Assembly (NCBI GenBank): GCA_002733685.1
Contig: NVWN01000013.1
Location: forward strand, 11,744-68,939
Direction: 5' to 3'
DNA: 57,196 nucleotides
From: Arcobacter sp.
GTDB taxonomy: Bacteria > Campylobacterota > Campylobacteria > Campylobacterales > Arcobacteraceae
Shown: positions 15,769 to 49,744 of the stretch, piece by piece
How the letters are laid out: each line of letters begins with the position of its first letter
How positions within the stretch are numbered: position 1 is the first letter of the stretch
Made by a program: the position numbers and the translations under genes
The notes under the pieces: generated by a model
Databases searched by the model: none
What the model was told of the DNA's origin: nothing
What the model saw: the letters and a program-made list of their open reading frames with translations, nothing else

Positions 15769-15769
15769 A

Positions 15770-16117: not shown

Positions 16118-16140
16118 ATTTTTATCCTTTTGTTTCTATA

Positions 16141-16160
16141 TTAGAATATTATAATATTAG
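16141..16160. promoter_or_regulatory. Candidate ArsR operator/promoter of the left mer operon
   Basis: TTAGAATATTATAATATTAG, containing a dyad and a TATAAT on the plus strand and ATTATAATATT symmetry on both, lies 24 bases upstream of the regulator's ATG. It resembles the dyad at 22372-22389 upstream of the second operon, suggesting a shared operator. Confidence 0.5.
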
Positions 16161-16221
16161 TGTTTACTAATTATGTAGTATTTTGGATTAGTTATTAATT
16201 TTAAGTAATTTATTCTGATAT

Positions 16222-16550: not shown

Positions 16551-16562
16551 ATTACTTTATCA

Positions 16563-18194: not shown

Positions 18195-18239
18195 CTAAAG
18201 TTCCTTTGTAAATAAATTTTAAATCTGACTTTTAATACT

Positions 18240-18884
18240 CTACTGGTGTTGACTCACTATAATACCTTCTACTTTATGTTTGCCCAAGTTGTCTTCATAG
18301 TTAATAGGCATATATCCAGTCTCTCCAATTGCTTTCATAATATGAGTTATTGATGTTTTAGTTTTGTCAAACTCTACAACCGCATTTTTATTTTCAGTTG
18401 ATGCTTTAATTTTTATTACACCATCAACTTGCATTGCCACAGTTTCCACAGTTCTTTCACAGGATGGACAAGTTAAGCCTTTTATTCCAATTGTATTTTT
18501 TACAATATTTGTTGTTTTGACTGTTTGTACTTTTATTTCATCCGCTTGAATAAAAACACTTCCCCAATAAGGAAATGAAAGCATTATGGTTGCAAAAACT
18601 GTTATAAGCCCTAGAAAACTTTTTGTATTATAAAAACTCTTTTTACCTAGCTCATCAGAATCACAAGCACATTTTATTGCATCTTTTTTAGTCTTTAAAA
18701 CTCTCCACCATGCATATCCAAGTACTAATACCGTTAGAGTTATTAGATAAGGGCGAAATGGTTCTATCCAAGTAAAAGTTGATGCCAAACCTGTTGTTCC
18801 AGCTAATAAGGCTAAAACTGGTGTGATACAACATAATGATGCACCTACTGAGGCAAAAACACCTGTCATAATTTTTTTATCCAT
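18240..18884 (-). CDS. merT: Mercuric transporter, MerT-MerP fusion
   Basis: A 214-residue protein. The N-terminal part is MerT-like: helix 1 with the Cys pair in VGASLCCITPVLALLAG, a second helix, then a cytoplasmic segment with a Cys pair CACDS, then a third helix. A C-terminal HMA domain (about 135-200) has KGLTCPSCERTVE. Fusions of MerT to a periplasmic HMA occur in mer operons and let the carrier capture its own Hg(II). It lies directly between the ArsR regulator and merA. A terminal tail of about 15 residues ends EGIIVSQHQ. Confidence 0.85.
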   Translation of the reverse strand: MDKKIMTGVFASVGASLCCITPVLALLAGTTGLASTFTWIEPFRPYLITLTVLVLGYAWWRVLKTKKDAIKCACDSDELGKKSFYNTKSFLGLITVFATIMLSFPYWGSVFIQADEIKVQTVKTTNIVKNTIGIKGLTCPSCERTVETVAMQVDGVIKIKASTENKNAVVEFDKTKTSITHIMKAIGETGYMPINYEDNLGKHKVEGIIVSQHQ

Positions 18885-18894
18885 TGGTGTGCTC

Positions 18895-19242
18895 CTAAAA
18901 CTTTATTAATGATTCTATATTTGATTTTAGTGATGAAGGTATGGAATAAAATATAATCAAACCTTCTCTATTGTTCTGCAAGATACCCCCATCTTTTAGT
19001 TTTCGTAAGTGCTGTGAGATAGGTGATTGTTTCATTTCTAGAACATCACTTAAATCACATACACACATTTTTTCATGTTTTAAAATGAGGTATACAATTT
19101 TTAATCTAACATCACTTCCTAAAAGTGAAAATAATTTTGCTTGATTGTCAAGCGTTTCTTTATTTGATGAGATATCTTCTTTAGCGTTATCCAATAACTC
19201 TTTATCAACATTGACACGATAACATGTGGTATCATTTTTCAT
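18895..19242 (-). CDS. ArsR-family metal-responsive repressor (copy 2)
   Basis: A 115-residue winged-helix repressor closely related to the copy at 15770: LLGSDVRLKIVYLILKHEK, MCVCDLSDVLEMKQSPIS and a recognition helix ISQHLRKLKDGG. The Cys-Val-Cys element marks the metal site. It sits inside the operon, 10 bases after the permease gene and 10 before merTP, so it is probably transcribed from the promoter near 22380 as well as regulating it. Confidence 0.85.
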   Translation of the reverse strand: MKNDTTCYRVNVDKELLDNAKEDISSNKETLDNQAKLFSLLGSDVRLKIVYLILKHEKMCVCDLSDVLEMKQSPISQHLRKLKDGGILQNNREGLIIFYSIPSSLKSNIESLIKF

Positions 19243-19251
19243 TATATTTCC

Positions 19252-20385
19252 TTATAACTTTTGTTTAAAATTTGAATTTGACATGTTTTTTGGCTTCTCT
19301 ACACTAAAACTTAAGGAACTTGTATTCATAATATTAGCTTTAATAATATTGGAAGTATTTTTGTTTTCTAGTTTTCTAAATTTATCTTTCAATAAATGAT
19401 AGAAGATTAATATAATCATTAATACTGAAGATATATTATTTAGTAGGGATACTTCATCTTCATCTATACTAATCATTAATAAACTTAATTTTGTAAAATA
19501 GGTGTCATATATATAACCAAATAAAAATGCCAATAAAGCTATAACCACAAGATAAACAATCAAGGATGTTTTCCCTAGCATTTTATATACAACACTCATT
19601 GTTATCATGCTTGTTGCCGGACCTGCGGTTAAAAAAATAAAAACTGCTCCAGCAGACATACCTTGAAGCATAAATGCTGCTGCAATTGGAAGTGAAGCTG
19701 TAGCACAAGTATATAAGGGCATTGCAAAAAGCATCACAATAAAATATGTTAGGAATTGATTTTCAAAGAGTAGTTTCGTATATTCTTGAGGTATAAAAGT
19801 TACAAATACAGCTCCCAAAATAAGACCAATAAGTAAAGGCTTTGCCATATCTGCGAAGAGTGTTCCATAACCATATTTTAATGAACTAACTAAGGAAAAA
19901 CTTTTTTTAGTAGTTTCACAGTTTGAAGAGCACCCACAAAAGCTTTGGGTATCTCCTACTCTTTTAACATCATCTTTTTGTATAAAGTTTTGAACAAGTC
20001 CAACGCTTATAGCAATAATAATCGATGAAATAACTCTAAAAATAGTGAATACAAAACCAAATAAGGAATATGTAGCCAATATTGAATCCACACCCGTAAT
20101 TGGTGTGGAAATTAAAAAACTTTGAACCGCACCTTTACTAGCACCTTCATTTCTCAATCCTTGAGCTAAAGGAATAACAGAGCAAGAACAAACAGGTAAA
20201 GGTATACCAAATAACGTGGCTTTTACAACAGAACCCACAGAGTCATTACCTAAATGATTTGATACAAAAGTATCAGGTATCAATTGTTTAAGAACTCCAG
20301 CAATCAACAACCCAATGATAATGTATATTGACATTGCATTTAAAAGTACTAGAAAATTATCTATGAATTGGATAACCAATTCCAT
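19252..20385 (-). CDS. SO_0444-type Cu/Zn/Hg efflux permease
   Basis: A 377-residue membrane protein with about eight hydrophobic segments and the family motif GIPLPVCSCSVIPLAQGLRN followed by ISTPITGVDSI. This permease family (DUF318/ArsP-like, SO_0444 group) exports soft metals or organo-metals. A cytoplasmic loop has CGCSSNCE, a probable metal-binding cluster. In mer cargo it probably exports metals that are not reduced, but the substrate is inferred. The C-terminal 50 residues are poorly conserved and polar. Its ATG overlaps the merF stop (TAATG), so it is coupled. Confidence 0.8.
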   Translation of the reverse strand: MELVIQFIDNFLVLLNAMSIYIIIGLLIAGVLKQLIPDTFVSNHLGNDSVGSVVKATLFGIPLPVCSCSVIPLAQGLRNEGASKGAVQSFLISTPITGVDSILATYSLFGFVFTIFRVISSIIIAISVGLVQNFIQKDDVKRVGDTQSFCGCSSNCETTKKSFSLVSSLKYGYGTLFADMAKPLLIGLILGAVFVTFIPQEYTKLLFENQFLTYFIVMLFAMPLYTCATASLPIAAAFMLQGMSAGAVFIFLTAGPATSMITMSVVYKMLGKTSLIVYLVVIALLAFLFGYIYDTYFTKLSLLMISIDEDEVSLLNNISSVLMIILIFYHLLKDKFRKLENKNTSNIIKANIMNTSSLSFSVEKPKNMSNSNFKQKL

Positions 20386-20618
20386 TACTTATCCAAACTC
20401 TTATCATTATTATCACAACAATTTCCACTTCTTTTTGAGAGTGCATAAATTGTTAATAAAACAAAAAACCCCAATGCAGGGAATAATACGTAATCTAAGT
20501 ATCCAATAATCGCACTAAGACCAACTGCAGTTACAATAACTACGAGAATTGGAGTAAAGCAACAAAGTGCCATTATTATACTACCTATAATTCCAGTTTT
20601 TAATGGGTTGATTTTCAT
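20385..20618 (-). CDS. merF: MerF mercuric ion transporter
   Basis: A 77-residue protein with two transmembrane helices. The first contains the vicinal Cys pair in MALCCFTPILVVIVTAVG; the second cytoplasmic pair is in GNCCDN near the C-terminus, followed by a charged tail. The spacing and the segment LSAIIGYLDYVLFPAL match MerF. It imports Hg(II) for reduction by MerA. ATGA overlap with the upstream metallochaperone gene. Confidence 0.9.
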   Translation of the reverse strand: MKINPLKTGIIGSIIMALCCFTPILVVIVTAVGLSAIIGYLDYVLFPALGFFVLLTIYALSKRSGNCCDNNDKSLDK

Positions 20619-21115
20619 TTATCATCCTTTGATAGTTTTATTTTGATATCCTCAATGGCTTTTTTAACATCTCCCATGCAACATTTTCCTTTTGGATTTT
20701 GTACTTCACAGTTACAAGCTTTGTTTTTAACTTTTTCTTTTATCTCTTCAAGTGCAGTAGTTGTTCCTGAATCTCGTATTTGATCCTCAATTCTCTCTTT
20801 TGACCAATTAAAACAAAAGCAAACAGTTGCAGGTTTTGAATTCTCTTTGATACCGATACTAAATTTTACGTCAGATTGCTTAAGAATCTGTCCCTTTTTA
20901 AAATAAATCACATCGCAAGTAGGTGTATTGCAAAAATGAAAACCATCCAAAGATGAAATATGTTTTTTTACGTCATCGTTTACAAAATGGCTTACTGCAC
21001 TTACTGGTACAGTTTTTGCCTTTTGATTGCATGAAGGGCATATATTGTCGTTTGGTTTTATCATTGTAAATAATGGTTTAGATTCAGCAGAACAACAATT
21101 ATGAGAATTATTCAT
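20615..21115 (-). CDS. CopZ-N-like iron-sulfur/zinc metallochaperone
   Basis: A 166-residue cysteine-rich cytoplasmic protein. Near the N-terminus: HNCCSAES, then ICPSCNQKAK, a zinc-ribbon half; then FHFCNTPTCDVIYF and TVCFCFNWS. Further cysteines (ACNCEV, KGKCCMG) follow. This layout corresponds to the N-terminal [2Fe-2S]/Zn domain of CopZ from Archaeoglobus, which serves as a metal chaperone in efflux operons. It overlaps both neighbours by 4 bases (ATGA), so production is coupled with MerF and the membrane protein upstream. Confidence 0.75.
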   Translation of the reverse strand: MNNSHNCCSAESKPLFTMIKPNDNICPSCNQKAKTVPVSAVSHFVNDDVKKHISSLDGFHFCNTPTCDVIYFKKGQILKQSDVKFSIGIKENSKPATVCFCFNWSKERIEDQIRDSGTTTALEEIKEKVKNKACNCEVQNPKGKCCMGDVKKAIEDIKIKLSKDDK

Positions 21116-21858
21116 ATTTTATCCTTAATTTGAGTACCTTTTAAAAAAGGTAATAGACATTGGGAATCTTCCCTTTTAAGCCAAAGATGGACCAAGAAGC
21201 CCAATATTATACCAAATACAATATGTGCGAATAAGGTCAATAAGAATAATTCTGGCCATAGCCATTTTACACCAAAAAAACCTACCATAGGAGCCATAGG
21301 CGGTGCTACCATCATTCCAAGTTCTAAGATTGATAACCATAATATTGCAAAAAACATAGTTTTTTTATAAGAATTAAAATTACCAAATACAATGGTAAAT
21401 ATAAGACCAAACCCTGCACCATTTAAAAAATGTGATAGCTGTCCAATCCAAAAATATTCATTAAAAGAAGAACTACCCGTTATCATTTTTCCAAACATAA
21501 CAGGAGTATCTCCTGGCAACCAACCATTTAAGACTCCCATTTGTCTAACCCAATCTAGTCCAATGGTAGCAATAGCACCAGCAGCAAATCCTATAATAAG
21601 TCTTCTAGATAAATCAGGATATTTAAATTTACTATAAATCATTATTCCAACTAAAATAATCATAGAAGGAATATATAAGTATAAAGTATATGGTAAGCCA
21701 AATTCATGGGCAACTTTTATAATCTTAGGACCCATAGTCTCACCCATATAATATTCTGAATATCCAAAAGACAGAACTATTAAGTGAATAGGAACAAATC
21801 CCCCTGTAAATAATGCAAAGAGGGTAAGCAATGATTTTTCTTTCATTAATATGTTCAT
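21112..21858 (-). CDS. Polytopic membrane protein, unknown, in mer cargo
   Basis: A 248-residue protein with about seven hydrophobic segments. Noticeable conserved-looking residues: GFVPIHLIVLSFGYSEYYMG, GLDWVRQMGVLNGWLPGD and MVAPPMAPMVGFFGVKW. I do not recognise the family. It starts within the operon opened by the DUF302-like gene, 8 bases downstream, and overlaps the metallochaperone gene. A role in metal uptake or export is inferred from this neighbourhood. Confidence 0.6.
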   Translation of the reverse strand: MNILMKEKSLLTLFALFTGGFVPIHLIVLSFGYSEYYMGETMGPKIIKVAHEFGLPYTLYLYIPSMIILVGIMIYSKFKYPDLSRRLIIGFAAGAIATIGLDWVRQMGVLNGWLPGDTPVMFGKMITGSSSFNEYFWIGQLSHFLNGAGFGLIFTIVFGNFNSYKKTMFFAILWLSILELGMMVAPPMAPMVGFFGVKWLWPELFLLTLFAHIVFGIILGFLVHLWLKREDSQCLLPFLKGTQIKDKI

Positions 21859-21865
21859 AATATCC

Positions 21866-22345
21866 TCATTTCATGATTTCAGATACAATATTATCTATCA
21901 ATCCATCTAATTCTTTTGCAATGGCTTCTTCTCCCTTATAGGCATTGAGTAATGTTGAGGGTTTGAAATACTTTATAATTACTATTTTATTGGGTTTTTC
22001 CATTACAATCATTTTTAATGGGATTTGAATGGTTGCTTCTTTATTGGCATCCATCACGCGTTTCATGTAGATGGGGTTAAAGAAAAATATTTGTTTCATT
22101 CCATTTATTTGTTTGCCAGCCATTCTAAGCATTCTTTGTCCATCGATAATTTTGATTATCATTAGATTTTGTCCCTCAATTGCTCCTGTTAGGATGTCAA
22201 CTGTGTCAGAAAAAGAGTAAATTGATTTCTTAATCACTGAACCATCACTTGGTTTAATTTGAGCAAAAGCATTTTGAGTAGACATAATTACACTTACAAT
22301 AAGAAGCATTTTAATAAATGCATTTTTAAGAGTAACATTTTTCAT
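21866..22345 (-). CDS. DUF302-like secreted protein
   Basis: A 159-residue protein with a signal peptide (MLLIVSVIMSTQNAFA). The mature part has the DUF302 pattern: SDTVDILTGAIEGQNLMIIK, then a central FFFNPIYMKRVMDAN and PLKMIVMEKPNKIVIIKYFKP. DUF302 proteins are small periplasmic proteins with uncertain function, common in metal-resistance and redox operons. First gene of the right mer operon, with the putative ArsR operator about 25 bases upstream. Confidence 0.65.
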   Translation of the reverse strand: MKNVTLKNAFIKMLLIVSVIMSTQNAFAQIKPSDGSVIKKSIYSFSDTVDILTGAIEGQNLMIIKIIDGQRMLRMAGKQINGMKQIFFFNPIYMKRVMDANKEATIQIPLKMIVMEKPNKIVIIKYFKPSTLLNAYKGEEAIAKELDGLIDNIVSEIMK

Positions 22346-22371
22346 TTTTTATCCTTTTTTCTATTTATATG

Positions 22372-22389
22372 AGAATATTAGTATATTCT
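22372..22389. promoter_or_regulatory. Candidate ArsR operator of the right mer operon
   Basis: AGAATATTAGTATATTCT is a 7-base-arm perfect dyad 27 bases upstream of the first gene of the operon, followed by TAATATAATA. It resembles the dyad at 16141-16160 upstream of the other ArsR gene. Confidence 0.5.
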
Positions 22390-22457
22390 AATATAATATA
22401 AGCTTAAGTTTAAATATTATCAGTTACAATTAAAATATTAGATAAGGATCTCCAGAA

Positions 22458-22890
22458 TGTATAAAAAATTAGCAGATTAATTTACATTATAATCTTTTCA
22501 ATTGGCTTGAGTCAAATAACTCTATGGGGAGTAGAATTTAAATCAAATGAAAATTTTAACATTAACAATAGAACCTTTTCTGGGAACAGTGGAATAAACG
22601 ATATAGAGAGTGACCATATAGATATACTAAATTTTAAGGATGGAATGTTTAATTCAAAATATTGTGAACAATGGGGATTTAAAGCTGTAAAATTTAAAAG
22701 TACTTTTAAAGATAATCAAACTTTTTTTGAAGGAATCTTGAAAAGTCAGGACAATGGAACTCTTTTATGCGAAGGTGTAGTAAAGAATATAAAATTAGAA
22801 GCAATCTTCACGTGGACAAGAAAATTTCTTTTCTGGGAAATAAAAAATGAGTACTGGTTTAGAGGTGAAGAGATACTCAAAGTAAAATAG
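22458..22890 (+). pseudogene. Secreted lipocalin-like protein, frameshifted in the signal peptide
   Basis: An ATG at 22458 behind AAGGA reads MYKKLAD then stops; one base later the frame resumes as LIYIIIFSIGLSQITLWGVE, an obvious signal peptide. The rest is open to 22890. A single-base deletion near 22476 is the simplest explanation; otherwise a TTG at 22507 could initiate. The mature part has one Cys pair (KYCEQWG...TLLCEG) and alternating beta strands ending TWTRKFLFWEIKNEYWFRG, giving a small beta-barrel or lipocalin-like look. It abuts the VTT protein gene with no gap. Possibly a metal-binding exported protein; I do not know the family for certain. Confidence 0.6.
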
Positions 22891-23523
22891 ATGAAAAAAA
22901 TATTCTTAATATTTTCAATTTTAGCATTGCTTCTATCGATAAATTATTTTGGTATGAATATTGTTGAAAGTATCAATCTTCCCTTATGGCCAAAACACAC
23001 CGAAATAACAGATCCTAGTATAATTATTGCATTTATATTGTATGTTTTATTAATGACTATGCCTTTTATGCCTGGAATTGAGATTGGACTAGCTTTGATG
23101 TTTGTGCTTGGTAAAGAAGGAATATTTCTTGTATATTTAGCGACCTTATTTTCCTTAGCTTTGAGCTACTGTATAGGTAGATTTATTCCTATTGTATGGG
23201 TTCTTATTTTCTTTAAATTTTTTAAGCTTAAAAAAGCATATACCCTTATATTCGAATTAGATAAATTAGAACCTAAAGAAAGAATTTCTTTTCTTCTTAA
23301 AAACCTTCATGATATATTTTTACCCAAAATATTAAAATACAGATATATTCTCCTTGGAGTTTTATTTAATACTCCTGGTAATTCCTTAAATGGAGGTGCA
23401 GGAGGAATTGGAATAGCTGCTGGAATGAGTGGTTTATTTAATATTTATTATTATGGTTTACTTATAATAATTGCTGTTTCTCCTATCCCTTTGCTTTTAT
23501 GGTTTGGATTTATTAATATATAG
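22891..23523 (+). CDS. VTT/TVP38-type membrane protein
   Basis: A 210-residue membrane protein with about five hydrophobic segments. The motif MPFMPGIEIGLALMFVLGK followed by a small-residue helix and FSLALSYCIGRF matches the VTT (DedA/TVP38/TMEM64, SNARE-associated) core; a Gly-rich segment (NGGAGGIGIAAGMSG) replaces the usual second repeat motif. Similar proteins occur in mer operons, where a DedA-like protein is thought to assist mercury or selenite handling. It directly follows the secreted protein with shared stop/start spacing (TAG ATG). Confidence 0.65.
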   Translation: MKKIFLIFSILALLLSINYFGMNIVESINLPLWPKHTEITDPSIIIAFILYVLLMTMPFMPGIEIGLALMFVLGKEGIFLVYLATLFSLALSYCIGRFIPIVWVLIFFKFFKLKKAYTLIFELDKLEPKERISFLLKNLHDIFLPKILKYRYILLGVLFNTPGNSLNGGAGGIGIAAGMSGLFNIYYYGLLIIIAVSPIPLLLWFGFINI

Positions 23524-23690
23524 TCTCAATAAGTATGGTGCATTTTATAAATGTATTGGAAAGTCTACTTTTAGAGTCACTACAAATAAAAACTAGAGGT
23601 ACCGATATATAGTGTCTCGAAATATATCTCCTTTTAGTGTCCTTTAACTTCTTAAGAGATACAATATACTTAAATTAAATAAGGCTTAAA
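23524..23690. other. Probable res (resolution) site of the transposon
   Basis: The 167-base gap ahead of the resolvase gene has several AGTGTCT/GAGATAC-type half sites: AGTGTCTCGAAATATATCT near 23620 and TTAAGAGATACAATATACTT near 23655. Tn3-family res sites sit here, made of inverted resolvase half-sites, and also hold the tnpR promoter. The number of subsites was not resolved. Confidence 0.45.
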
Positions 23691-24251
23691 ATGAAAGTTG
23701 GTTATGCAAGAGTTTCAAGTATAGGACAAAACTTACAATCTCAAATTGAATTATTAAAAAAAGCTGGATGCCAAAAAATATTTCAAGAAAAGAAAAGTGC
23801 CACACATACTTCAAAAAGAGTTGAATTACAAAATGCCTTGGATTTTGCAAGAGAAGGGGATATTTTTGTTGTGACAAGATTAGATAGGTGTAGCAGAAGT
23901 GTTTTAGATTTGTATAAAATCATTGATATATTAACTAGTAATGGAGTGTCGTTTAAAGCAACTGAACAAGACATAGATACATCAACGAGCTCAGGAAGGT
24001 TGATGATAGGTTTATTATCTATTGTTGCAGAATTTGAAACGGATTTAAGATCTGAAAGACAAGCTGAAGGAATATCATCCGCAATAAAAAGGGGTGTGAA
24101 GTTTGGAAGAAAAGCTAAATTTGATAATCTAAAAGTTAAAGAAGCCATCAAGATGCAAAATGAGGGAATGATTAATCAAGATATAGCTGATTACTTTGAA
24201 ATAGCTAGAAGTACTCTATTAAGGTGGATAGCAAAGTATAACAAGGATTAA
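23691..24251 (+). CDS. tnpR: Serine recombinase, Tn3-type resolvase
   Basis: A 186-residue protein, normal for TnpR. The catalytic Ser is in YARVSSIGQNLQSQ; conserved Arg residues are in VVTRLDRCSRSVLDLYK; the linker RSERQAEGI and a C-terminal helix-turn-helix NQDIADYFEIARSTLLRW follow. It resolves cointegrates at res. Directly followed by tnpA with a 4-base gap, so both are one transcription unit. Confidence 0.92.
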   Translation: MKVGYARVSSIGQNLQSQIELLKKAGCQKIFQEKKSATHTSKRVELQNALDFAREGDIFVVTRLDRCSRSVLDLYKIIDILTSNGVSFKATEQDIDTSTSSGRLMIGLLSIVAEFETDLRSERQAEGISSAIKRGVKFGRKAKFDNLKVKEAIKMQNEGMINQDIADYFEIARSTLLRWIAKYNKD

Positions 24252-24255
24252 CTAA

Positions 24256-27200
24256 ATGGCTCGTATACAGATTTTATCAAAACAAGAAGAAAAAATATTT
24301 AATGAGCCACCAGATTTTTTACCCAATGAACAGAAATATTATTTCAAAATACCTACAAAGCTTTTGGATCAACTTTATACTAACATAGCGATAGAAAATA
24401 TCGGCTATGTAATTTTACAATATGGTTATCTAAAAGCAAATAATAAATTCTTTGAAACTCACAAAGAACCTGACATTCAATATATAAAAGATATTTATAT
24501 GTTGAAAGATTTAAATATTAATATTCCTAAGCGAACCAAACAAAGATATCATTCTATAATAAAAGAATATATAGGTATTCAATTACTAACAGCAAGCATA
24601 AAACTTATACTCCAAAACGAAGCAATTTCAATGGCAAATAATTTTCAAGATAGAAGAAAAATATTTTGGACACTTGTAAATATATCCAAGAATGTAAAAA
24701 TTGAAATACCAAGTTATACAGAATTAGTTGAAATAATTGCAACTGCCTTAAATCATCAAAAATCATTTATTATAGAAAAACTCAAAGAATTTGAAACTAG
24801 TGAAAATTTAAAACAATTAGATATCTTTGTAGAAAAAAATTCAAAATTCAAAAATAAATATAATATAGGTAGCTTTAAAAGATTGGAACATTCAACAGCT
24901 AGAAGTAAAATACTTAAAAGTCTATCTCATCATCAAACTATACAAAGTAAATTTAGATTGAATAAACAAATTATTGAAGCCATTGGCATAAGCTCTGAAA
25001 TAGCTCAATATTATGCCAAATGGATTAACAAAAGTAGAGTTCACCAGTTAACAAGAAAGAATACTTTAGATACTTACTTTACACTATTATCCTTTATTTA
25101 TTATCAATATTTTATTCGTAATGACAATTTAATAGATCGATTTATAGGTATCGTTCAAAGTGCCAAAAATTCATCAATCAGAGCACAAAAAGATTCCATA
25201 TTTCAACAATCTTCTGCTAAAAATAATACAATAACTAGTTTGGAAAATACAAGCCTAGAAATTGTAAATAATATTAAAAATATTACTCAAAATCCAAATA
25301 TAAGTGCTGTAATAAAAGTAAAACTTATTGATGATTACATAAATAAACAAACACAAATCTTAGCTAAAATTTTATCAAATAATAAAACAATTGAATCGGA
25401 TATGGATAGCAAGTATAATTTTATTGAATCTAAATCAAAAGTCATACAAGGTAAATTATCTGGCATTTTAAAAGTAATAGAATTCGATGAAGTATCTTCA
25501 AATAAAGATATAATCATTGCTATAAATTATTTTAAAAACAATACAAACATCAATGAGAAAGCACCTCGGGCTTTTTTAGATAATCAAGAACAAGAGATGA
25601 TATTTAATAATGGTAAATTTAAAATATCTCTTTATAAAATTTTATTATTTTTTGCAGTGAGTAATAATATAAAATCTGGAACATTAAATCTAAAATATTC
25701 GTATAGATATCAAAGTTTTGAGAAATATTTAATCAATAAAGAAGCATGGGAAAAATCTAAAGACAATCTTTTAAAGGCTTATAAAATTGAACACTTGAAA
25801 GACTTTAGCTCCTTTATGAATCCTATAATTAAGAAATTGGATGATAGTTATAAAAATACAAATTATCGCATAATCAATCAGTTAAACAGCAATTTTAAAT
25901 TTAATAACGATTCATTTATATTAAAAACTCCTGCTATTGAAAGATTAAATGACGAAGATAATATTAGTAAGTATCTACCAAGTAGTAATTACATCTCTAT
26001 TATTGATATTTTGAATATGATCAATAAACAAACTCAATTTCTAGATCCACTAACTCATTTCAATATTAAAAATAAGAATAAAGTCTCTATACACTTATTA
26101 TTGGCAGCTATATTAGGATATGGATGCAATATAAATATATCAAAAATTGCTAAAATATCAAAAGGCATTAATCCAAATCAATTAGATAATACAAAAACCT
26201 GGTATTTTACAGAAGATAACACAATTGATGCCAATGATAAGATAATAGCTTTTATGGATAATTTAGAAATAGTAAAATTACTTCGTAATCAAGAAAATAT
26301 AAATCACACCTCAAGTGATGGACAGAAGTACAATATGAAACCATCAGTTGAGTCAACCAATGCAGGCTATTCCTTTAAATATTTTGGAACTCAAAAAGGA
26401 GTTAGTGTATATACTTTTATTGATGAGAGCCATAGATTATTTTATTCTACGGTTATAAACGTTAGTGAGAGAGAAAGTGGATATGTTATTGATGGGCTAA
26501 TGCATAATGATGTAATAAAAAGTGATATACACTCAACAGATACACATGGTTTTTCTGAAGTCATATTTGGACTCACCCATCTACTTGGATTTTCATTTGC
26601 TCCTAGAATTAAGAATTTTAAAGATCAACAATTATATGCATTTAAAAGTAGAAAAGAATATTTGCAACTAGGGTATGATCTCTTACCAAAACGCAAAATC
26701 AACACAATTAAAATGGAAGAGAATTGGGATGATATTTTAAGGTTTATTGTTACTATAAAATCTAAAAAGACATCTGCCTCACAATTGTTGAGAAGATTAA
26801 CATCTTATTCAAAACAACATAAATTATATGCAGCAATTAAAGAGTTTGGTAAAATTATAAAAACAGATTTTCTATTAAATTATATTGATGATGTTGAACT
26901 CCGTCAAAGAATTGAGAAACAATTAAACAAAGTTGAAAGTTCAAATAAATTCTCCAAAGCAGTATTTTTTGGAAATAACACAGAATTTACAGTTGCTACA
27001 ATAGAAGAACAAAACATTGCTAATAACTGTAAAAGATTAATACAAAACTCTATCATCCTATGGAATTATCTTTATATGTCCCAAAAATTAAATATAACAT
27101 CCAATAAAGAAGAAAAAAAAGAGATAATTAAAACTATTCGACAAAGTTCTATTATGCACTGGAGTCATATTAATTTTTATGGAGAATATGATTTTACAAA

Positions 27201-27264
27201 ATTAAATCGTAAAAATAGCGCATACTTAAAAGATATGGACTATTTGAAGTTAGACATACTTTAA
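24256..27264 (+). CDS. tnpA: Tn3-family DDE transposase TnpA
   Basis: A 1002-residue protein, the normal size for TnpA. The N-terminal part binds the terminal repeats. The DDE core is visible: first Asp in NHTSSDGQKYNMKPSVES, second Asp in SDIHSTDTHGFSEVIFGL, with the Glu further downstream. The end reads SIMHWSHINFYGEYDF, typical of Tn3 TnpA (usually S-P-x-x-W-x-H-I-N). The last 50 codons are duplicated, inverted, at the transposon's other end. The gene looks intact. Confidence 0.92.
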   Translation: MARIQILSKQEEKIFNEPPDFLPNEQKYYFKIPTKLLDQLYTNIAIENIGYVILQYGYLKANNKFFETHKEPDIQYIKDIYMLKDLNINIPKRTKQRYHSIIKEYIGIQLLTASIKLILQNEAISMANNFQDRRKIFWTLVNISKNVKIEIPSYTELVEIIATALNHQKSFIIEKLKEFETSENLKQLDIFVEKNSKFKNKYNIGSFKRLEHSTARSKILKSLSHHQTIQSKFRLNKQIIEAIGISSEIAQYYAKWINKSRVHQLTRKNTLDTYFTLLSFIYYQYFIRNDNLIDRFIGIVQSAKNSSIRAQKDSIFQQSSAKNNTITSLENTSLEIVNNIKNITQNPNISAVIKVKLIDDYINKQTQILAKILSNNKTIESDMDSKYNFIESKSKVIQGKLSGILKVIEFDEVSSNKDIIIAINYFKNNTNINEKAPRAFLDNQEQEMIFNNGKFKISLYKILLFFAVSNNIKSGTLNLKYSYRYQSFEKYLINKEAWEKSKDNLLKAYKIEHLKDFSSFMNPIIKKLDDSYKNTNYRIINQLNSNFKFNNDSFILKTPAIERLNDEDNISKYLPSSNYISIIDILNMINKQTQFLDPLTHFNIKNKNKVSIHLLLAAILGYGCNINISKIAKISKGINPNQLDNTKTWYFTEDNTIDANDKIIAFMDNLEIVKLLRNQENINHTSSDGQKYNMKPSVESTNAGYSFKYFGTQKGVSVYTFIDESHRLFYSTVINVSERESGYVIDGLMHNDVIKSDIHSTDTHGFSEVIFGLTHLLGFSFAPRIKNFKDQQLYAFKSRKEYLQLGYDLLPKRKINTIKMEENWDDILRFIVTIKSKKTSASQLLRRLTSYSKQHKLYAAIKEFGKIIKTDFLLNYIDDVELRQRIEKQLNKVESSNKFSKAVFFGNNTEFTVATIEEQNIANNCKRLIQNSIILWNYLYMSQKLNITSNKEEKKEIIKTIRQSSIMHWSHINFYGEYDFTKLNRKNSAYLKDMDYLKLDIL

Positions 27265-27384
27265 TATTAAAAATTAATAATTGGTCCTCTATGGGTAATC
27301 TATGAGTCAGTTTTTTTAGAATTTATTGAATTAAGCTACTTATAAGCAAGATGGCGCGTTTAGTACCTTTGTACATAAGTACCC
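27114..27384. repeat. Right 271-bp inverted terminal duplication (tnpA 3' end plus IR)
   Basis: Reverse complement of 11915-12185. The terminal GTACCTTTGTACATAAGTACCC is the functional inverted repeat end, and the bases from 27265 outward are non-coding. Confidence 0.85.
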
Positions 27385-27390
27385 TATATT
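27385..27390. repeat. Target-site duplication, right copy (TATATT)
   Basis: Matches the six bases immediately before the left end of the transposon (11909-11914). Confidence 0.7.
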
Positions 27391-27549: not shown

Positions 27550-27921
27550 TTAGTTAATTAAAAATTGTAAGTCATTCCCCTGTAACATATCAAAACTTTT
27601 AAGGAAATCATGTGCCTTAAGTATCTTATTCAACTGGTCTTCCCCAAAAGTAAATTCACTTTTGATAATTAAGATATTGTTACTAATCTTTCCATTATGT
27701 AATTCCACGTGGAAAGTTTTAGTTATAAACCTAAACACTTCAAAAGTTTTATTATAAAGCTCTTGATCTGTGTATTTATAAATCACCTTATTATCTTGTT
27801 TAATTTTTATCATTGGAATTTTCATAGATTTAGATTGTATGTTACACAACAGGTCAATATGTTCTGCATTTATTTCTTTTGCAGCTTCTAGTATTTCTTT
27901 AATTGATGATGTTTTTGACAT
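27550..27921 (-). CDS. Hypothetical protein, 123 residues
   Basis: No family recognised. It is a soluble protein with alternating helices and strands (for example IDLLCNIQSKSMKIPMIKIK and NNILIIKSEFTFGEDQLNK) and no signal peptide. It has a GTTTACT-type leader and lies alone on the minus strand, divergent from the four-gene cluster at 28235, separated by 313 bases. It could be a regulator or antitoxin for that cluster, but nothing in the sequence shows it. Confidence 0.5.
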   Translation of the reverse strand: MSKTSSIKEILEAAKEINAEHIDLLCNIQSKSMKIPMIKIKQDNKVIYKYTDQELYNKTFEVFRFITKTFHVELHNGKISNNILIIKSEFTFGEDQLNKILKAHDFLKSFDMLQGNDLQFLIN

Positions 27922-28234
27922 AGTAAACCTTTATTTTATTTAATAATAATATATAGTTAAATAATATTATATGAAATTTTATCTAAAAAAAAGACCTTGT
28001 GCTCAAAAACTTTATTTTCATTTCATTTTATTAAATGAAAATATTAGAGGATAGTGCTTAATTTAATTAAATATAATGTTTTGAAAATCACCTGACTCAA
28101 ATAAAGTGTAATAAACTTATCATTTAAAGACATTTATACTCTAATTTTCATAAGTTTTTATGACTAAAATAAGTTCTATTATATATTATTTTGCTAGAAT
28201 TTTGTTTATCAATATTTAAAAATAAGGGAGTACC
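27922..28234. other. Intergenic region upstream of the 28235 cluster
   Basis: Non-coding. It contains a 10-base-arm inverted repeat ATTTTCATTT / AAATGAAAAT (28015-28042), which may be an operator or a transcription end for neighbouring RNA. An AT-rich stretch near 28180-28200 (TATTATTTTGC) may be the promoter; no firm -35/-10 pair was chosen. Confidence 0.3.
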
Positions 28235-28672
28235 ATGACTGCAGTTGAAAAATTTTTTTTCAAAAGTGATATGTTTGATGTCCTTATATTAGAACCACTT
28301 GAACATATAAGAGGTAATACTGATTTAACTTACGATGGTATTTTACATTTCTTTACTCCTGAGGGAAACAGTTTTGCTGATGAAGTAAATCAAATGCTTA
28401 AAGAGTTACATAATACTATCGTCCCTAATGCATATCATGAAAATGAAGATATTCTTGCTAATAATGTGATTAAAAGACATAAATGGAATATATATAAAGA
28501 AAATTCACGATGGAAAGGTAATGATTATGACGAGCTAAACCTTCTTGCCGCTGCTGCAGGAAGAATAAAATCAGCATTTGATCATAATACACTACATTTC
28601 GATGATATGGAAAAAGGTCATCAAAAAATATTAGCAGATATTCTCTCAATAATTTTATACCATCGTTTTTAA
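28235..28672 (+). CDS. Hypothetical protein, first gene of a four-gene cluster
   Basis: A 145-residue soluble, acidic protein with a strong AAGGGAG ribosome site. Nothing recognised. Visible features: FFFKSDMFDVLILEPLEH at the start, a helical middle (FADEVNQMLKELHNTIVPN) and a C-terminal helix with LNLLAAAAGRIKSAFDHN. It may be a small partner protein for the downstream nuclease and glycosylase-like genes, all on the same strand with gaps of 20, 5 and 15 bases. Confidence 0.55.
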   Translation: MTAVEKFFFKSDMFDVLILEPLEHIRGNTDLTYDGILHFFTPEGNSFADEVNQMLKELHNTIVPNAYHENEDILANNVIKRHKWNIYKENSRWKGNDYDELNLLAAAAGRIKSAFDHNTLHFDDMEKGHQKILADILSIILYHRF

Positions 28673-28692
28673 TAAATCTAAGGAGATACTAA

Positions 28693-29574
28693 ATGGAAAT
28701 AATAAAAATTAAGGGTAAAGCATTAGAAAAACTTATTAATGTAACCAGTAATGCAATCGGTACTCTTTATGAGCCTAGAAAGATTAGAAAAAATGCAGAT
28801 GCTCAAGCATATAGAATTGAGGTAATAGCAGAAGCAGAAAGAACTAAAATACTTATAGAAGACGATACAAAATTTGAGGTTTTGGAAAGAGCAAAAAAAA
28901 GAATTTTTTTACAAAAAATTAATAAACAAATAAATATTGAGGAAGTAGTATCTAAAGCAATACCTCATCTAAAAGATAATGATACAGAGGAAGTAGTTGA
29001 CAAAGATTGGAGCACGAAGTTTTTTCAAAAAGCTCAAGACATAACTAGTAGCAATGTACAAGAAAAATGGGCAAGAATACTGGCGAACGAAATTTCAAGT
29101 CCTGGTACAACAAGTATACGCACAATGGAAGTACTTTCTGTTCTAAGTAAATCTGAAGCAGAAAAATTTGAAATACTATGCTCTTTAGTATCTAGTGATA
29201 ATCTTATATGGAAAACTAAGAAACAAAATGCGTTTGATGAATATAATATTAAATACAGTGATTTGCTTTTACTTAGGGATGCAGGGTTACTATACTCAAG
29301 TGATACATTAGTATCTATCATTCCAATTATACCAGATATAAAAATTGGGATGATGTGGATAGGGAATGATGAATACACCATAACTAATAAAAAATCGCAT
29401 GAAAATAGTTTTAAATTTAATCAGATTGCTTTGTCAGTTGCAGGTAAAGAATTATGCAAAATTTTGAATATTGAAAAAAATGAAAAATATATTAAAGAAC
29501 TAATAAATGAAAAAACTCAACATGGGTTTACTCTTGTTAAGGTAATTAAAGTTGTATCAAATAAAGGAATATAA
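28693..29574 (+). CDS. DUF2806-family protein
   Basis: A 293-residue protein that resembles DUF2806: an N-terminal helical section with heptad-like charges (EAERTKILIEDDTKFEVLER), the conserved DKDWSTKFFQKAQDI and EKWARILANEISSPGTTSIR and TMEVLSVLSKSEAEKFE blocks. DUF2806 proteins are widespread but without assigned function, and several lie near defence genes in published genomes. The ribosome site AAGGAGA is strong. Gene 2 of the cluster. Confidence 0.6.
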   Translation: MEIIKIKGKALEKLINVTSNAIGTLYEPRKIRKNADAQAYRIEVIAEAERTKILIEDDTKFEVLERAKKRIFLQKINKQINIEEVVSKAIPHLKDNDTEEVVDKDWSTKFFQKAQDITSSNVQEKWARILANEISSPGTTSIRTMEVLSVLSKSEAEKFEILCSLVSSDNLIWKTKKQNAFDEYNIKYSDLLLLRDAGLLYSSDTLVSIIPIIPDIKIGMMWIGNDEYTITNKKSHENSFKFNQIALSVAGKELCKILNIEKNEKYIKELINEKTQHGFTLVKVIKVVSNKGI

Positions 29575-29579
29575 TTAAT

Positions 29580-30281
29580 ATGGAAAAAATGGGAGAATCA
29601 CAAATCATTGATTTTTTTTCGACAATTATCAATGACGAATTTAAAAAAGAATTTGGAGATACCGAAAGCTATTCAATTGGCAACTTTTCAGGAAGTCAAG
29701 ATAGAGAATTTGCGGATTTCTTTGCTGGCACTGATGCAGTAAATGTTTTAATAGAATTTAAAGAGAAAAAAGTTGAATATAAAGCAGAATCAAGAAAACC
29801 CAATAGAGAAATACTTTGTAAAAATCTTAATGATACTATTTCAATAATCTCACGTAAATGCCATTTTATTGGCTGGGGAACTGATCAAGTAGTAATAGAA
29901 GCTGAATTTTGCCCATATATTGATATAGTATGTCACATCTGGAATTGTACAAATTTATTAAAAAAAGAAAAAATACATAAAGATTATCAATTCGTTCAAG
30001 AACTTATTAAAGAGGAAATAGGGGTAAACCATAATGAATTTATTACTTATATTAACTATCTACACAAGATATCAGGTGGTAAAGATTCAGGAGGAGAGAT
30101 ACCTTTCAAATCTATCCTCTATAGTTATAAGGATAATAGAATAGTAGCTACTCGCTTTGATAATCTTAATGAATTACTAGTATTAAGACAAATTATACGA
30201 ATGAAAAATAATGAAATAAATGAAGAAAAGAATAAACAGAATGACATAGACAACGATAGAGGAATGGGAAGAAGAATGTAA
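29580..30281 (+). CDS. PD-(D/E)XK-like nuclease, putative
   Basis: A 233-residue protein. The N-terminal half has a motif reading QDREFADFFAGTDAVNVLIE FKEKK: acidic residues, then Asp about 15 residues before an E-x-K of the form IEFKEKK. That is the pattern of PD-(D/E)XK nucleases. A C-terminal region (about 130-233) is helical with Lys/Asn-rich end. The active-site reading is mine; no family match was run. Third gene of the cluster, 5 bases after the DUF2806 gene; the nearest AGGAAT is 13 bases upstream of the ATG, so the start is less certain. Confidence 0.5.
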   Translation: MEKMGESQIIDFFSTIINDEFKKEFGDTESYSIGNFSGSQDREFADFFAGTDAVNVLIEFKEKKVEYKAESRKPNREILCKNLNDTISIISRKCHFIGWGTDQVVIEAEFCPYIDIVCHIWNCTNLLKKEKIHKDYQFVQELIKEEIGVNHNEFITYINYLHKISGGKDSGGEIPFKSILYSYKDNRIVATRFDNLNELLVLRQIIRMKNNEINEEKNKQNDIDNDRGMGRRM

Positions 30282-30302
30282 AGATTTAAACTAAGGATGA
30301 AA

Positions 30303-30896
30303 ATGGATCTACATATTAATAGCACAAATCATAGAACTATAAAAGAAAGCTTCTTTAAAATTGCAAAACAGATACTTAACCAGTACATTTTAGTTGTAAA
30401 TAAAAAAGAGTATAGAGTAGTTACAATAGAGTTTTATTATTATAATGAAGACGTTCACAAAGATACACATTCACATGCATACAAACGTAAAAGAGCAAAA
30501 GAAATGCACGTACATTCCAGTAAGTGGTATTTACATTATTTAAATACACAGGATAGCACAAGGTTTAAACGTAAAGGAATAGATTATACCTTTGGTGATG
30601 GAACAAATTATGGAGGAATACTAATAAAAGAGGTCAGAGAGCTTTATGGAGATAAGTTACTACATACGCAATCAATATTTATTGATGAGTTAGTGAAAGA
30701 ACTTAATCCTGCTGAGGTAGATAAGTGTAATTCTATTATATTTCAAAAAATGATTGAAGAAGATAATAGGCTAAATTTTGAAGCAAGACAAGACTTAGAA
30801 GAAAAAAATATTTTAACCTGGACAAGAAAAGGTTTATCGAAAAAAGAAAATGAATTCTCAAAAAAAGCATATGCATTCAAACTTGAAGACTTTTAA
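30303..30896 (+). CDS. Putative DNA-3-methyladenine-glycosylase-like (MPG-fold) protein
   Basis: The first ATG (30297) touches the AAGGA ribosome site; the ATG at 30303 has a normal 6-base spacing, so I start there (197 residues). Within VVTIEFYYYNEDVHKDTHSH the residues E, Y and H fit the spacing of the catalytic Glu, Tyr and His of human AAG (Glu125, Tyr127, His136). Downstream KWYLHY, RKGIDYTFGDG and GGILIKEVREL correspond to the nucleotide-flipping loop and the strand VLIRALEPL of MPG glycosylases. That makes it a probable member of the MPG-type glycosylase fold that removes modified bases. Last gene of the cluster, followed by a strong terminator. Confidence 0.5.
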   Translation: MDLHINSTNHRTIKESFFKIAKQILNQYILVVNKKEYRVVTIEFYYYNEDVHKDTHSHAYKRKRAKEMHVHSSKWYLHYLNTQDSTRFKRKGIDYTFGDGTNYGGILIKEVRELYGDKLLHTQSIFIDELVKELNPAEVDKCNSIIFQKMIEEDNRLNFEARQDLEEKNILTWTRKGLSKKENEFSKKAYAFKLEDF

Positions 30897-30921
30897 TGCA
30901 ACAAGGGTTAACCTTGTTGCA
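30897..30921. terminator. Bidirectional terminator between convergent clusters
   Basis: TGCAACAAGG and CCTTGTTGCA form a 10-base perfect stem with a 5-base loop. T-rich sequence on one side and A-rich on the other suit termination from both directions, for the 28235 cluster and the 32526 cluster. Confidence 0.7.
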
Positions 30922-30933
30922 AATTAATTCCAA

Positions 30934-31479
30934 CTAATTTGCTTTTGTGTCTTTATTAACTTTTAATTCCATTTTTCTTTGATAATTATATAGGACAGAT
31001 TCACATTCTTCAGCAATTTTATTTGTAATATCGCAAAATGAAGCAAATCCATACACATCAAAACTTATATTAATTGCAGCATTGGTTTCCATATTAATAA
31101 AGTAATTACTTCCCTTGCTTGGATCTTCTTTAACACCAAGTGTCAACGTTTTCTTATAACCATTACTCGTTCTTGTAAGATTTGGGTCCGTATAATTTTT
31201 ATAATTAGTTTTACCTGATCTTAATAGTTCCTTACATCCATGCACAAGTCTTCTAAGCTCATAAGAGTCCATTTTCATTGATATTCTATTATTATAGTCG
31301 TAAGAAAAACCCGATGCATTGCGAATACCATTATAAAATTCAAGATAAACTAAATCCTTGCATACAGGGTAAGCAGAAGAAGAATTTTTTGTAACTGTTA
31401 TAAAAGCAGATATATTTAATAGATTTTTTGATTGAAAACCTTTTTGTGCTACTCTGTATTTTTTGTCATCGTCACTCAT
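30934..31479 (-). CDS. Hypothetical protein, beta-rich, possibly ssDNA/RNA-binding
   Basis: A 181-residue protein rich in beta strands with Ser/Thr/Asn. Its layout (AFITVTKNSS near the start, KKTLTLGVKED in the middle, NISFDVYGFASFCDITNKIA near the end) faintly suggests a PC4/Whirly-type nucleic-acid-binding fold, but this is a guess. A basic C-terminal tail (YNYQRKMELKVNKDTK) is present. Last gene of a three-gene minus-strand set with short gaps (13 and 20 bases). Confidence 0.5.
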   Translation of the reverse strand: MSDDDKKYRVAQKGFQSKNLLNISAFITVTKNSSSAYPVCKDLVYLEFYNGIRNASGFSYDYNNRISMKMDSYELRRLVHGCKELLRSGKTNYKNYTDPNLTRTSNGYKKTLTLGVKEDPSKGSNYFINMETNAAINISFDVYGFASFCDITNKIAEECESVLYNYQRKMELKVNKDTKAN

Positions 31480-31492
31480 AGATATCCTTTAA

Positions 31493-32218
31493 TTATTTGT
31501 CATCATTTAATTTTACATACACATTACCTAATGCTCTGTACCCCTCTTTAATAAATTTTGCTACCATCATATCAGTTCGGTGGTTATCTACTTCCTCAAG
31601 CTCTTTATATCTCAAAATATTAGGGTAATTAATTGATAAATGTTTTTGTGCCCTACTCTTTTTTTCTTTTTCGTAATAAGCCCAAGATATTTGACCATAT
31701 TGTTTTCTTTCTTTAAAGGTGCTAATAATAATATGGTATGATTCTGGATTTTGTGAAATTTTACTAAATTCTTCTTCTTCATTTAATATTTTAGCAGCTG
31801 CAGTTGCGTTAATTCTTGCTGCTTCTTCATTATTAAGTTCTTCTGTAATAATTATTTCACGTGCATTTTTTTCTATTCTATTTTTTGAAATACTTTTCTC
31901 AACTTTTAATCTTTTAATACATTTTTCTTGTTCTGTAATCAATGAGGATTTCATAACTGATGTAAGATTAAATTGAAAAGCTATATTATTGGGATTTAAT
32001 ATATTAACAATCTTATTTAAATCATAAACAGAGCCTCTTCTTGTGTCTGTTTTATATTCCTGCAGCTTTTCATCTATTACGATTAACTTTGAATAAAGAG
32101 CCTCATCTATAAGGTAAAGTTTTGCTTTTTCAAAATCTATATAATCTATAGATTCAAGTAGAGAGATTATTTCAAGTTTTGCTTGAGCTAAGATAATTGT
32201 TTTTGTCACGACTTCCAT
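31493..32218 (-). CDS. Hypothetical protein with central coiled coil
   Basis: A 241-residue protein. Residues about 100-165 form a charged helical stretch (EEAARINATAAAKILNEEEE) likely to be a coiled coil. N-terminal part: AQAKLEIISLLESIDYIDFE. No motif is known to me. It is the middle gene of the three-gene minus-strand set and ends with a short basic/acidic segment. Confidence 0.5.
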   Translation of the reverse strand: MEVVTKTIILAQAKLEIISLLESIDYIDFEKAKLYLIDEALYSKLIVIDEKLQEYKTDTRRGSVYDLNKIVNILNPNNIAFQFNLTSVMKSSLITEQEKCIKRLKVEKSISKNRIEKNAREIIITEELNNEEAARINATAAAKILNEEEEFSKISQNPESYHIIISTFKERKQYGQISWAYYEKEKKSRAQKHLSINYPNILRYKELEEVDNHRTDMMVAKFIKEGYRALGNVYVKLNDDK

Positions 32219-34783: not shown

Positions 34784-36040
34784 ATGGTAAAATTTGAGAA
34801 CAAAAAACCCACTAATGTGGAGATTGGTAAGAGAATTGATAAAAAAGAAAGTACAATAAGAGCTTTTAAAAAAAATCATCCCGAAAAAATTGAACAATTA
34901 GAACTTGAACATAAAGAGGCAACCTACCCATTTTTAAATATAAAAGAATATTTACAGGCAATAAACTTAGATGAGCCACTTAGTGAAAAAGACTTGCTAA
35001 ATGAAATTATTACATTAAGTCAAAGGATTGAAAAGAAGGAATTACCAGGAACTATTTATATAGATGGGAATAAATTTAAACATATATTTATTCCAGCAAT
35101 TATAGATAGACTTGAAGGAATAAAAGATTTTATGAATGACATAAAAATTCAATTACCAATAACAATTAGTATTGGAAATCACAAGGGAGGCGCAATTAAA
35201 ACCACAAATACAACAAATATTGCTGCTTCCCTAGCCTACTTTGGATACAAAGTTTTAATTGTAGATTTTGATCCACAAGGTAACGCAAGTGGAAGTTTTG
35301 GTATTTATGAAGGAGATTACAAATATACAATAGTTGATCTATTAACAATGAGTGCTGATAAAGATATTGAACATAAAGTAAAGGAATCAGTAATTAACAT
35401 AAACATGGATAATACATTTGAGAATGGGATTACTGGTAAACTAGATATTTTAGCAAATAATGCAACAATGAGTGAGCAAGTTGAAGATTTACCAAGCATG
35501 ACAAGACATATAGGTACGATTGAAAATACATTAGATAGAGTACTTAGTTATATAAAAAATGATTATGACTTTATACTAATTGATTTACCTCCTCGAACAG
35601 ATGTAATTTTAAGAACCTCTATGATTGCAAGCGATTATTTCCTTGTATCCTTGAATACTCAACCATTTGCAAAAATGGGGATGCCTAATATTTTAAATCC
35701 AATTAATAAATATAAGCATGTGTACAAACAAGAAAAAAATAAAGATTTTATTATACTTGGAGGAATAGTCGCTTGTCATGAAAGTGGAGTAAGTATTCAA
35801 GATGCGAATTATAATCAAATGAAAGAAGATATATTAACTTGTACAGATAATAAAACATCACTGTTTGATACATATATACCCAAAGCATCAGTTATTCCAG
35901 AATCTCAGCAAGGAGATGGTGCAGTTATCTTCAATTCACCTACAAGTAAAATTACAAGAAAGTATTTTGATTTAACGCTTGAAATTCTAGAGAGGTTAGC
36001 TATTGAAAAAGATATGGAAAACAATAAAGGATTAAACTAA
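34784..36040 (+). CDS. parA: ParA-type plasmid partition ATPase with unusual P-loop
   Basis: A 418-residue type Ia ParA. The N-terminal part (1-60) looks like a helix-turn-helix used for autoregulation (VEIGKRIDKKESTIRAF). The ATPase domain begins near 125. The deviant Walker A reads NHKGGAIKTTNTTN (about 132-145): the signature Lys is present but the usual Gly before the catalytic Lys is Ile (Ile138), which is uncommon. Motif A' DFDPQGNASGS and motif B FILIDLPPRTD are intact. It moves plasmid copies to daughter cells on ParB-bound parS. Its stop overlaps the parB start by one base. Confidence 0.85.
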   Translation: MVKFENKKPTNVEIGKRIDKKESTIRAFKKNHPEKIEQLELEHKEATYPFLNIKEYLQAINLDEPLSEKDLLNEIITLSQRIEKKELPGTIYIDGNKFKHIFIPAIIDRLEGIKDFMNDIKIQLPITISIGNHKGGAIKTTNTTNIAASLAYFGYKVLIVDFDPQGNASGSFGIYEGDYKYTIVDLLTMSADKDIEHKVKESVININMDNTFENGITGKLDILANNATMSEQVEDLPSMTRHIGTIENTLDRVLSYIKNDYDFILIDLPPRTDVILRTSMIASDYFLVSLNTQPFAKMGMPNILNPINKYKHVYKQEKNKDFIILGGIVACHESGVSIQDANYNQMKEDILTCTDNKTSLFDTYIPKASVIPESQQGDGAVIFNSPTSKITRKYFDLTLEILERLAIEKDMENNKGLN

Positions 36041-37083
36041 TGGAAAATAATTATTCAATAAAAGAATTTATTAAATTAGATGATTTAACGCAAAAGAATT
36101 ATGTAATTAATTTTGAAAAAGAGGAGCAACGTGTATTTCTAATTGATTTGAAGAAGAAAGACATGCGTTTATCTCTTCAATTATCATCATTTATACAATC
36201 TTCTAAAAATATGGATAATACTGAATCTGTAAATAAAATCATAACAATACTAGAAACAAATATTTCAGTATTAATTGATATTATCAAACCAAATCCTAAT
36301 CAACCAAGAAAAATTATTACAGAACCTGAAATTACTGAAAAAGTAAAGTCCATAGAGAATAGGGGGCTTATAACGCCAATAACTGTCTATAAAGACGAAA
36401 AAGGCGAATACATACTCATTAGTGGGCAACTAAGATTAAAAGCTTATTTTAGACTACATGAAAAAGAAAAATTAGATGGAGTAGTCGAAAAGGATTATAA
36501 ATATCAGAAAATACCTGTATATATTAAAGAAGCTGTTAAATATTCAAAATCTGATTTTGAATATGATGGATTAATAGAAAATATTATTAGAACAGAATTA
36601 CATGTTGTAGATGCAGCAATATCAATTAAAAATGTCTTTGAAAATCAAGATAAAAGTTTGAATGAGTTCTCGCAGTTATTAGGAAAATCGTCCTTTTATG
36701 TATCCTCATACATTAAAATTGCAGAGGCTGGAGAAAGCTTTTTATCGTTCATTAGAGAAAAAGATATTCAAGCTCCAACTATTATATATTTAATAATACG
36801 CCTTGATAAAACACTAGACGAAAAAAAAGCACTAATTGAGCAATATATAGCTGGGGATATTAAAAAGAGTGATTTAATTAAGATTAAATCAATTGATTCT
36901 AGTACAAAGGAGAACAAAGCAAATGTACAAGAGAAAGTATCTTTGTTTGATAATGTATTTTCTTTTAAAAAAATATTTACAAAAAAGAAATACAATTCGT
37001 TGGATAAGAAAGATAAATTAGTGGTTGATAATAAACTAAACGAAATAGTTGAACTTCAAAAAGAAATTAATAGAATTATATAA
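36040..37083 (+). CDS. parB: ParB-type plasmid partition protein
   Basis: A 347-residue protein. A ParB/Srx-like nuclease fold lies at about 85-190: IKPNPNQPRKI, ENRGLITPITVYKDEKGEYI, LISGQLRLKAYFRL, and LIENIIRTELHVVDAAISIK. A KorB-type HTH follows (FSQLLGKSSFYVSSYIKIAE, 210-230). The C-terminus is charged and probably dimerises. It binds parS and stimulates ParA. The N-terminal 80 residues are variable. Translation is coupled to parA (overlapping TAATG). Confidence 0.85.
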   Translation: MENNYSIKEFIKLDDLTQKNYVINFEKEEQRVFLIDLKKKDMRLSLQLSSFIQSSKNMDNTESVNKIITILETNISVLIDIIKPNPNQPRKIITEPEITEKVKSIENRGLITPITVYKDEKGEYILISGQLRLKAYFRLHEKEKLDGVVEKDYKYQKIPVYIKEAVKYSKSDFEYDGLIENIIRTELHVVDAAISIKNVFENQDKSLNEFSQLLGKSSFYVSSYIKIAEAGESFLSFIREKDIQAPTIIYLIIRLDKTLDEKKALIEQYIAGDIKKSDLIKIKSIDSSTKENKANVQEKVSLFDNVFSFKKIFTKKKYNSLDKKDKLVVDNKLNEIVELQKEINRII

Positions 37084-49739: not shown

Positions 49740-49744
49740 TACCC

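Follow-up and report, generated by a model that had tools for sequence, protein, structure and literature searches.

The window analysed here, i.e., the whole stretch of 57,196 nucleotides of Arcobacter sp. DNA, is part of a 123-kb contig in a 3.3-Mb genome. Four plus-strand genes are closely packed in it, just where they had been predicted, and a hairpin follows the last one:

28235..28672, plus strand: gene 1, 145 amino acids, member of an uncharacterised plasmid family
28693..29574, plus strand: gene 2, 293 amino acids, DUF2806 protein (PF10987), apparently distant kin of Abi-alpha (DUF4393)
29580..30281, plus strand: gene 3, 233 amino acids, with a PD-(D/E)XK-type motif D46...E59-x-K61
30297..30896, plus strand: gene 4, 199 amino acids, member of a divergent, putative MPG/AAG-type DNA glycosylase family
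30897..30921: 10-bp hairpin, between gene 4 and the convergent gene at 30934-31479 (minus strand)

All four open reading frames are genes, since each of them has protein relatives elsewhere. Shine-Dalgarno-like GGGAG, AAGGAG, AAAGGA, and AAGGA precede the starts of genes 1 to 4, respectively, in agreement with the ribosome sites proposed earlier; two of the predicted gaps (20 and 5 nt) are exact, but the last one is 15 nt rather than about 20. The terminator proposed at 30897 is a strong hairpin indeed (-16.2 kcal/mol, z -5.0), but there is no U-tract on the plus strand and the terminator scan found none, so that a standard terminator was rejected; the hairpin is possibly a terminator that functions without a plus-strand U-tract.

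The four-gene run sits on a plasmid, as the following replication and partition genes indicate:

34784-37083: ParA/ParB, plasmid partition marker
38231: RepM-like initiator, plasmid marker
39168: DnaB, plasmid marker

An IS21 element in the plasmid matches Aliarcobacter plasmids at the DNA level, in support of a host from the Arcobacteraceae (Campylobacterota). Upstream of the run, positions 11910-27389 of the window are occupied by a Tn3-family mercury-resistance transposon, which carries:

16563-18194: mercuric reductase
an ArsP-like permease
23691-24251: resolvase
24256-27264: transposase

The inverted repeats of the transposon (11910-12185 and 27114-27389) are unusually long, 276 nt, and 92% identical. 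Because they stop at 27389, and gene 1 starts 850 bases past this point, the four genes lie outside the transposon, and we rejected the possibility that they are Tn3-type cargo. On the other side, the minus-strand protein at 30934-31479 matches the plant Whirly ssDNA-binding family just short of the threshold (E 4e-4, 20.7 bits, cut-off 23); if true, this would be an unusual find for a bacterial plasmid. Further downstream there is a defence-like stretch (48863-57050):

48863-49669: PDC-S64/DUF3644-like protein (PADLOC match)
49905-50690: DUF5677-like protein (by eye)
51055-51612: C-terminal part of PD-T4-6 (PADLOC match)
53364-57050: STAND NTPase, 1228 amino acids

The PDC-S64, PD-T4-6 (C-terminus), and STAND NTPase genes are carried by the same plasmid, 18-26 kb from the four-gene run.

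Gene 4 had been predicted to encode an AAG-type 3-methyladenine DNA glycosylase on the basis of an E-x-Y motif and a suitably spaced His. A direct comparison of gene 4 with Pfam MPG (PF02245) gave E 0.0024 and 17.7 bits, which is under the curated cut-off of 27 bits, and the protein is also under the NCBIfam cut-off for MPG. Seven gene 4 relatives taken without the window sequence gave no Pfam MPG match. We then compared a family profile (the window sequence plus these 7 relatives) with a profile of 13 MPG proteins found by PF02245 in other genomes. HHalign scored this pair at 40.5 (P 5e-5 for a single comparison; HHalign probability 68-76%) over 159-196 columns; the alignment takes in both the N-terminal helix and the C-terminal R-x-G-L...Y-R-F block. 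Scores for comparison were 12.3 with the profile reversed, at most 19.8 in 100 column shuffles, and 14-16 for the families of genes 1 and 3. Adding four more gene 4 relatives raised the score to 42.5; leaving out the window sequence lowered it to 31.7, which is still above the shuffles. A PDB search by the family sequence profile found no match, and the AlphaFold model of gene 4 from a single sequence (pLDDT 34) gave no reliable structure. From the profile comparison, we consider the gene 4 family a distant, unannotated branch of MPG/AAG, seemingly homologous along the full domain length; the relationship that had been predicted is thus supported, albeit as a distant one, and the E-x-Y and His placement goes beyond chance.

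The residues themselves agree with this assignment. Gene 4 positions E45, Y47, H60, Y78, K111, and R177 all match MPG positions. Briefly, a joint alignment was built from 8 gene 4 family rows and 13 MPG rows, and a larger set (n=12) of family members was also considered. All 8 family rows and all 13 MPG rows share E45, Y47, Y78, and R177, H60 is identical in 20 of the 21 rows, and the K111 position is Arg or Lys in every row; E45, Y47, and K111/R are present in all 12 members of the larger family set. The gene 4 counterparts H60 and Y78 are those that we take to be His136 and Tyr157 in human AAG numbering, so that Glu125, Tyr127, His136, Tyr157, Arg182 (a position that is Lys in most bacterial MPGs compared), and the C-terminal R-x-G-I/L...Y-R-F block have counterparts in gene 4, in a co-linear, end-to-end profile alignment. 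There is one clear difference: H80, at the human Tyr159 position, is His in 12/12 gene 4 family members, whereas Tyr is found in 13/13 MPGs. Besides the below-threshold Pfam and NCBIfam scores, the motifs Y-x-H, G-x-D-x-T-F-G, and G-G-I-L-I-R/K also set the gene 4 family apart from MPG/AAG as its own. In human AAG, Glu125 and Arg182 act on the water, which Glu125 activates; Tyr127 is the base-stacking residue, and Tyr159 belongs to the base pocket (PMC12347255). With the catalytic residues conserved and Tyr159 replaced by His, gene 4 appears to retain the hydrolytic core and to differ in one wall of the base pocket. What is new here would be an unannotated MPG branch with a diagnostic Tyr-to-His change, and members of the family can readily be recognised by this His80 signature.

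The other three genes are less informative individually. Gene 1 has relatives on plasmids of Pseudanabaena (47% identity), Paracoccus, Agrobacterium, and Ensifer, belongs to no Pfam, NCBIfam, or PADLOC family, and its family profile found nothing significant in the PDB. Gene 2 is a DUF2806 protein as predicted (PF10987, E 6.5e-41). Abi-alpha of Enterococcus prophages is a proven abortive-infection protein and has been stated to resemble PF10987 (PMC6356687). Gene 2 has no match to PF14337 (DUF4393, Abi-alpha). The DUF2806 profile aligned with Abi-alpha over 45 residues with a score of 29.5 (best of 60 shuffles, 17.4) at an HHalign probability of just 14%, and it retrieved one Abi-alpha protein with E 1.7e-4; gene 2 is, judging from these comparisons, distantly related to Abi-alpha. 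Note, however, that the two belong to different Pfam families and that the phenotype is proven for Abi-alpha, while DUF2806 is likened to it by sequence. DUF2806 is also present in two phages. On an Escherichia coli IncX4 plasmid (L028, 4348-7725), mcr-1.1 and the adjacent PAP2 gene are flanked by two annotated DUF2806 pieces, which looks like one DUF2806 gene interrupted by the insertion of this pair.

For gene 3, a PD-(D/E)XK-like nuclease had been predicted from its E-x-K pattern. In two alignments of five sequences each, no row departs from D46, E59, and K61 (D-x12-E-x-K), and helices and strands are predicted in an order that is compatible with a PD-(D/E)XK core; the motif part of the prediction therefore stands, but the fold was not confirmed: with a low-quality model (pLDDT 59), Foldseek returned no significant match, Pfam gave no nuclease match, and the PDB search with the family profile found nothing significant. 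Relatives of gene 3 are found on plasmids of Nostoc (42%), Pantoea, Robbsia, and Klebsiella/Raoultella, in genomes of Erwinia, a Methylococcales, and a Pseudomonas, and on one viral contig (51%). A nuclease is our best guess for gene 3, and a reasonably probable one.

The original prediction combined these genes into a single base-excision defence system, in which modified foreign DNA is marked by the glycosylase and cut at its abasic sites by the gene 3 protein, DUF2806 is a sensor or regulator, and all four genes work together. The tight spacing and the ribosome sites favor such a unit, as do the adjacent glycosylase and nuclease motifs and the presence of Abi-alpha among DUF2806 relatives. 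Another gene 4 relative, moreover, lies directly downstream of two REase-like proteins (L073, 2849-4314; identified by motif and by eye), although neither matched anything in a PDB sequence search. One of these two proteins has, by eye, a TIR/deoxyribosyltransferase-like N-terminal part. If the four genes are one system, their families should be seen together elsewhere, and a neighbourhood comparison of homologues had indeed been proposed. We ran all four family profiles over 27 independent loci of 6-16 kb each (11 for gene 4, 8 for gene 3, 5 for gene 2, and 3 for gene 1; please note that this is a limited sample in which most relatives are distant). Not one of the 27 loci holds two of the four families, and none of genes 1-3 lies beside the closest gene 4 relative, which is 55% identical. 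Neither gene 1 nor gene 3 was found in other Campylobacterota genomes (230 and 397 searched, respectively, own genome included). The absence of a conserved four-gene set is thus established for the loci examined, and, with no two families sharing any of them, the unit is at best a local combination. A single four-gene defence system is therefore, in our view, rather improbable.

How gene 4 relatives are distributed bears on whether the protein serves repair or defence. In Campylobacterota, a whole-genome search found relatives in 7 of 397 class genomes (8 counting the own genome), and a profile search in the host family, where the 55% identical relative was found, added four further copies in three genomes. 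Scans of genome contig, viral contig, plasmid, and phage collections with gene 4 found no relatives; with a relative's protein as the query, one weak plasmid match was obtained (Hymenobacter, E 9e-4). A search for the GIDITFGD pattern in viral contigs yielded just unrelated phage-type proteins and no gene 4 relative, and none was found in 166 genomes from the class of the Pseudomonas relative. MPG family proteins are repair enzymes, and gene 4 might simply be an ordinary repair glycosylase carried as plasmid cargo, acting on alkylated or deaminated host purines with no role in defence. The niche for such an enzyme is open, i.e., 0/121 Campylobacterota genomes have an MPG above the Pfam cut-off, and several gene 4 relatives adjoin ordinary chromosomal genes (HIT, thiamine-binding, CorA), neighbours that fit a repair role equally well. 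However, the patchy distribution, two different gene 4-family copies within one genome, the mobile or defence-like neighbours of relatives, and the changed substrate pocket are all unlike a housekeeping gene, and we judge ordinary repair to be unlikely, though a reading to be taken seriously.

The neighbourhoods of some relatives do look suggestively defence-like. In one locus (L012), the gene 4 relative is in a run with an ADP-ribosylglycohydrolase (PDB match E 2e-5) and a WYL-type regulator (by eye). In another (L013), it is preceded by a protein resembling DUF2779/Cas4-like nucleases (by eye) and followed by a macro domain (E 6.6e-11) and again a WYL-type regulator (by eye; no match in a PDB search). 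ADP-ribosylglycohydrolase genes have been reported near Brig1 and Brig3 (PMC11078745, PMC13160076), and the L012 and L013 neighbours echo these. Such hydrolases, together with the Y159 to H change in the pocket, could mean that gene 4 keeps the MPG fold and acts in step with them on, e.g., an ADP-ribosylated or otherwise bulky nucleic-acid adduct. Yet they occur in just 2 of the 11 relative loci and none adjoins gene 4 in the window, which makes this possibility highly improbable.

Brig1 had been the precedent for the predicted defence role. Brig3 is reported to be a Brig1 homologue and a UDG-superfamily protein (PMC11078745, PMC13160076). The gene 4 profile matches MPG, so that a homology with Brig was rejected; the comparison holds as a functional analogy, i.e., a glycosylase in defence-like neighbourhoods, some of them with ADP-ribosylglycohydrolase genes, phage protection being a hypothesis for gene 4. 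The restriction glycosylases R.PabI/R.CcoLI, found in the same order, Campylobacterales, have the HALFPIPE fold and always lie beside a cognate methyltransferase (PMC10273834). Base excision against foreign DNA, known for PabI and hypothetical for gene 4, would be common to both, but gene 4 is of the MPG type by its profile and has no adjoining methyltransferase: no methyltransferase match was found among the genes at 27550-32218.

Taken together, we lean moderately towards an operon-like run of plasmid accessory genes whose families travel separately, probably as defence cargo, with gene 4 as an active glycosylase of changed specificity that acts on foreign DNA. We infer its catalysis, substrate, and defence role from sequence. 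Most likely, gene 4 would be a monofunctional DNA N-glycosylase of the MPG/AAG fold, in which Glu45 would activate the water, Lys111 would help position it, Tyr47 would stack on the flipped-out base, and His80, in place of Tyr159, would alter which base is accepted. The substrate is likely a modified or deaminated purine (hypoxanthine, an alkylpurine, or a phage base), and the likely role is the excision of such an abnormal purine from foreign DNA, leaving an abasic site where the strand would then be broken by host AP endonucleases, by other nucleases, or, should gene 3 encode a nuclease, by its product. Gene 2 (Abi-alpha-like) and gene 3 (nuclease-like) are probably independent cargo of the defence type rather than obligate partners.

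A more specific target can be considered for the glycosylase. AAG removes hypoxanthine (PMC12347255), guanine is replaced by deoxyinosine or deazaguanine in Campylobacter phages (PMC8713573), and the idea of a Campylobacter inosine glycosylase has been raised as a speculation in a review (PMC10273834). Deoxyinosine-containing Campylobacter phage DNA may thus be an attractive candidate target of gene 4. The bolder proposal, that the gene 4 family are MPG-fold anti-phage glycosylases for the guanine-replacing purines of Campylobacterota phages, above all hypoxanthine (deoxyinosine, Fletchervirus/Firehammervirus group), is in our own estimate improbable. The DNA glycosylases known to act against phages have either a UDG (Brig) or a HALFPIPE (PabI) fold, and to our knowledge none with the MPG fold has been described earlier. 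If true, an MPG/AAG branch with an altered pocket, scattered through Campylobacterota and at some loci next to ADP-ribose hydrolases and restriction-type nucleases, would add a third fold to the anti-phage glycosylases, and the inosine glycosylase suspected to act against deoxyinosine phages would have a concrete candidate in the gene 4 family.
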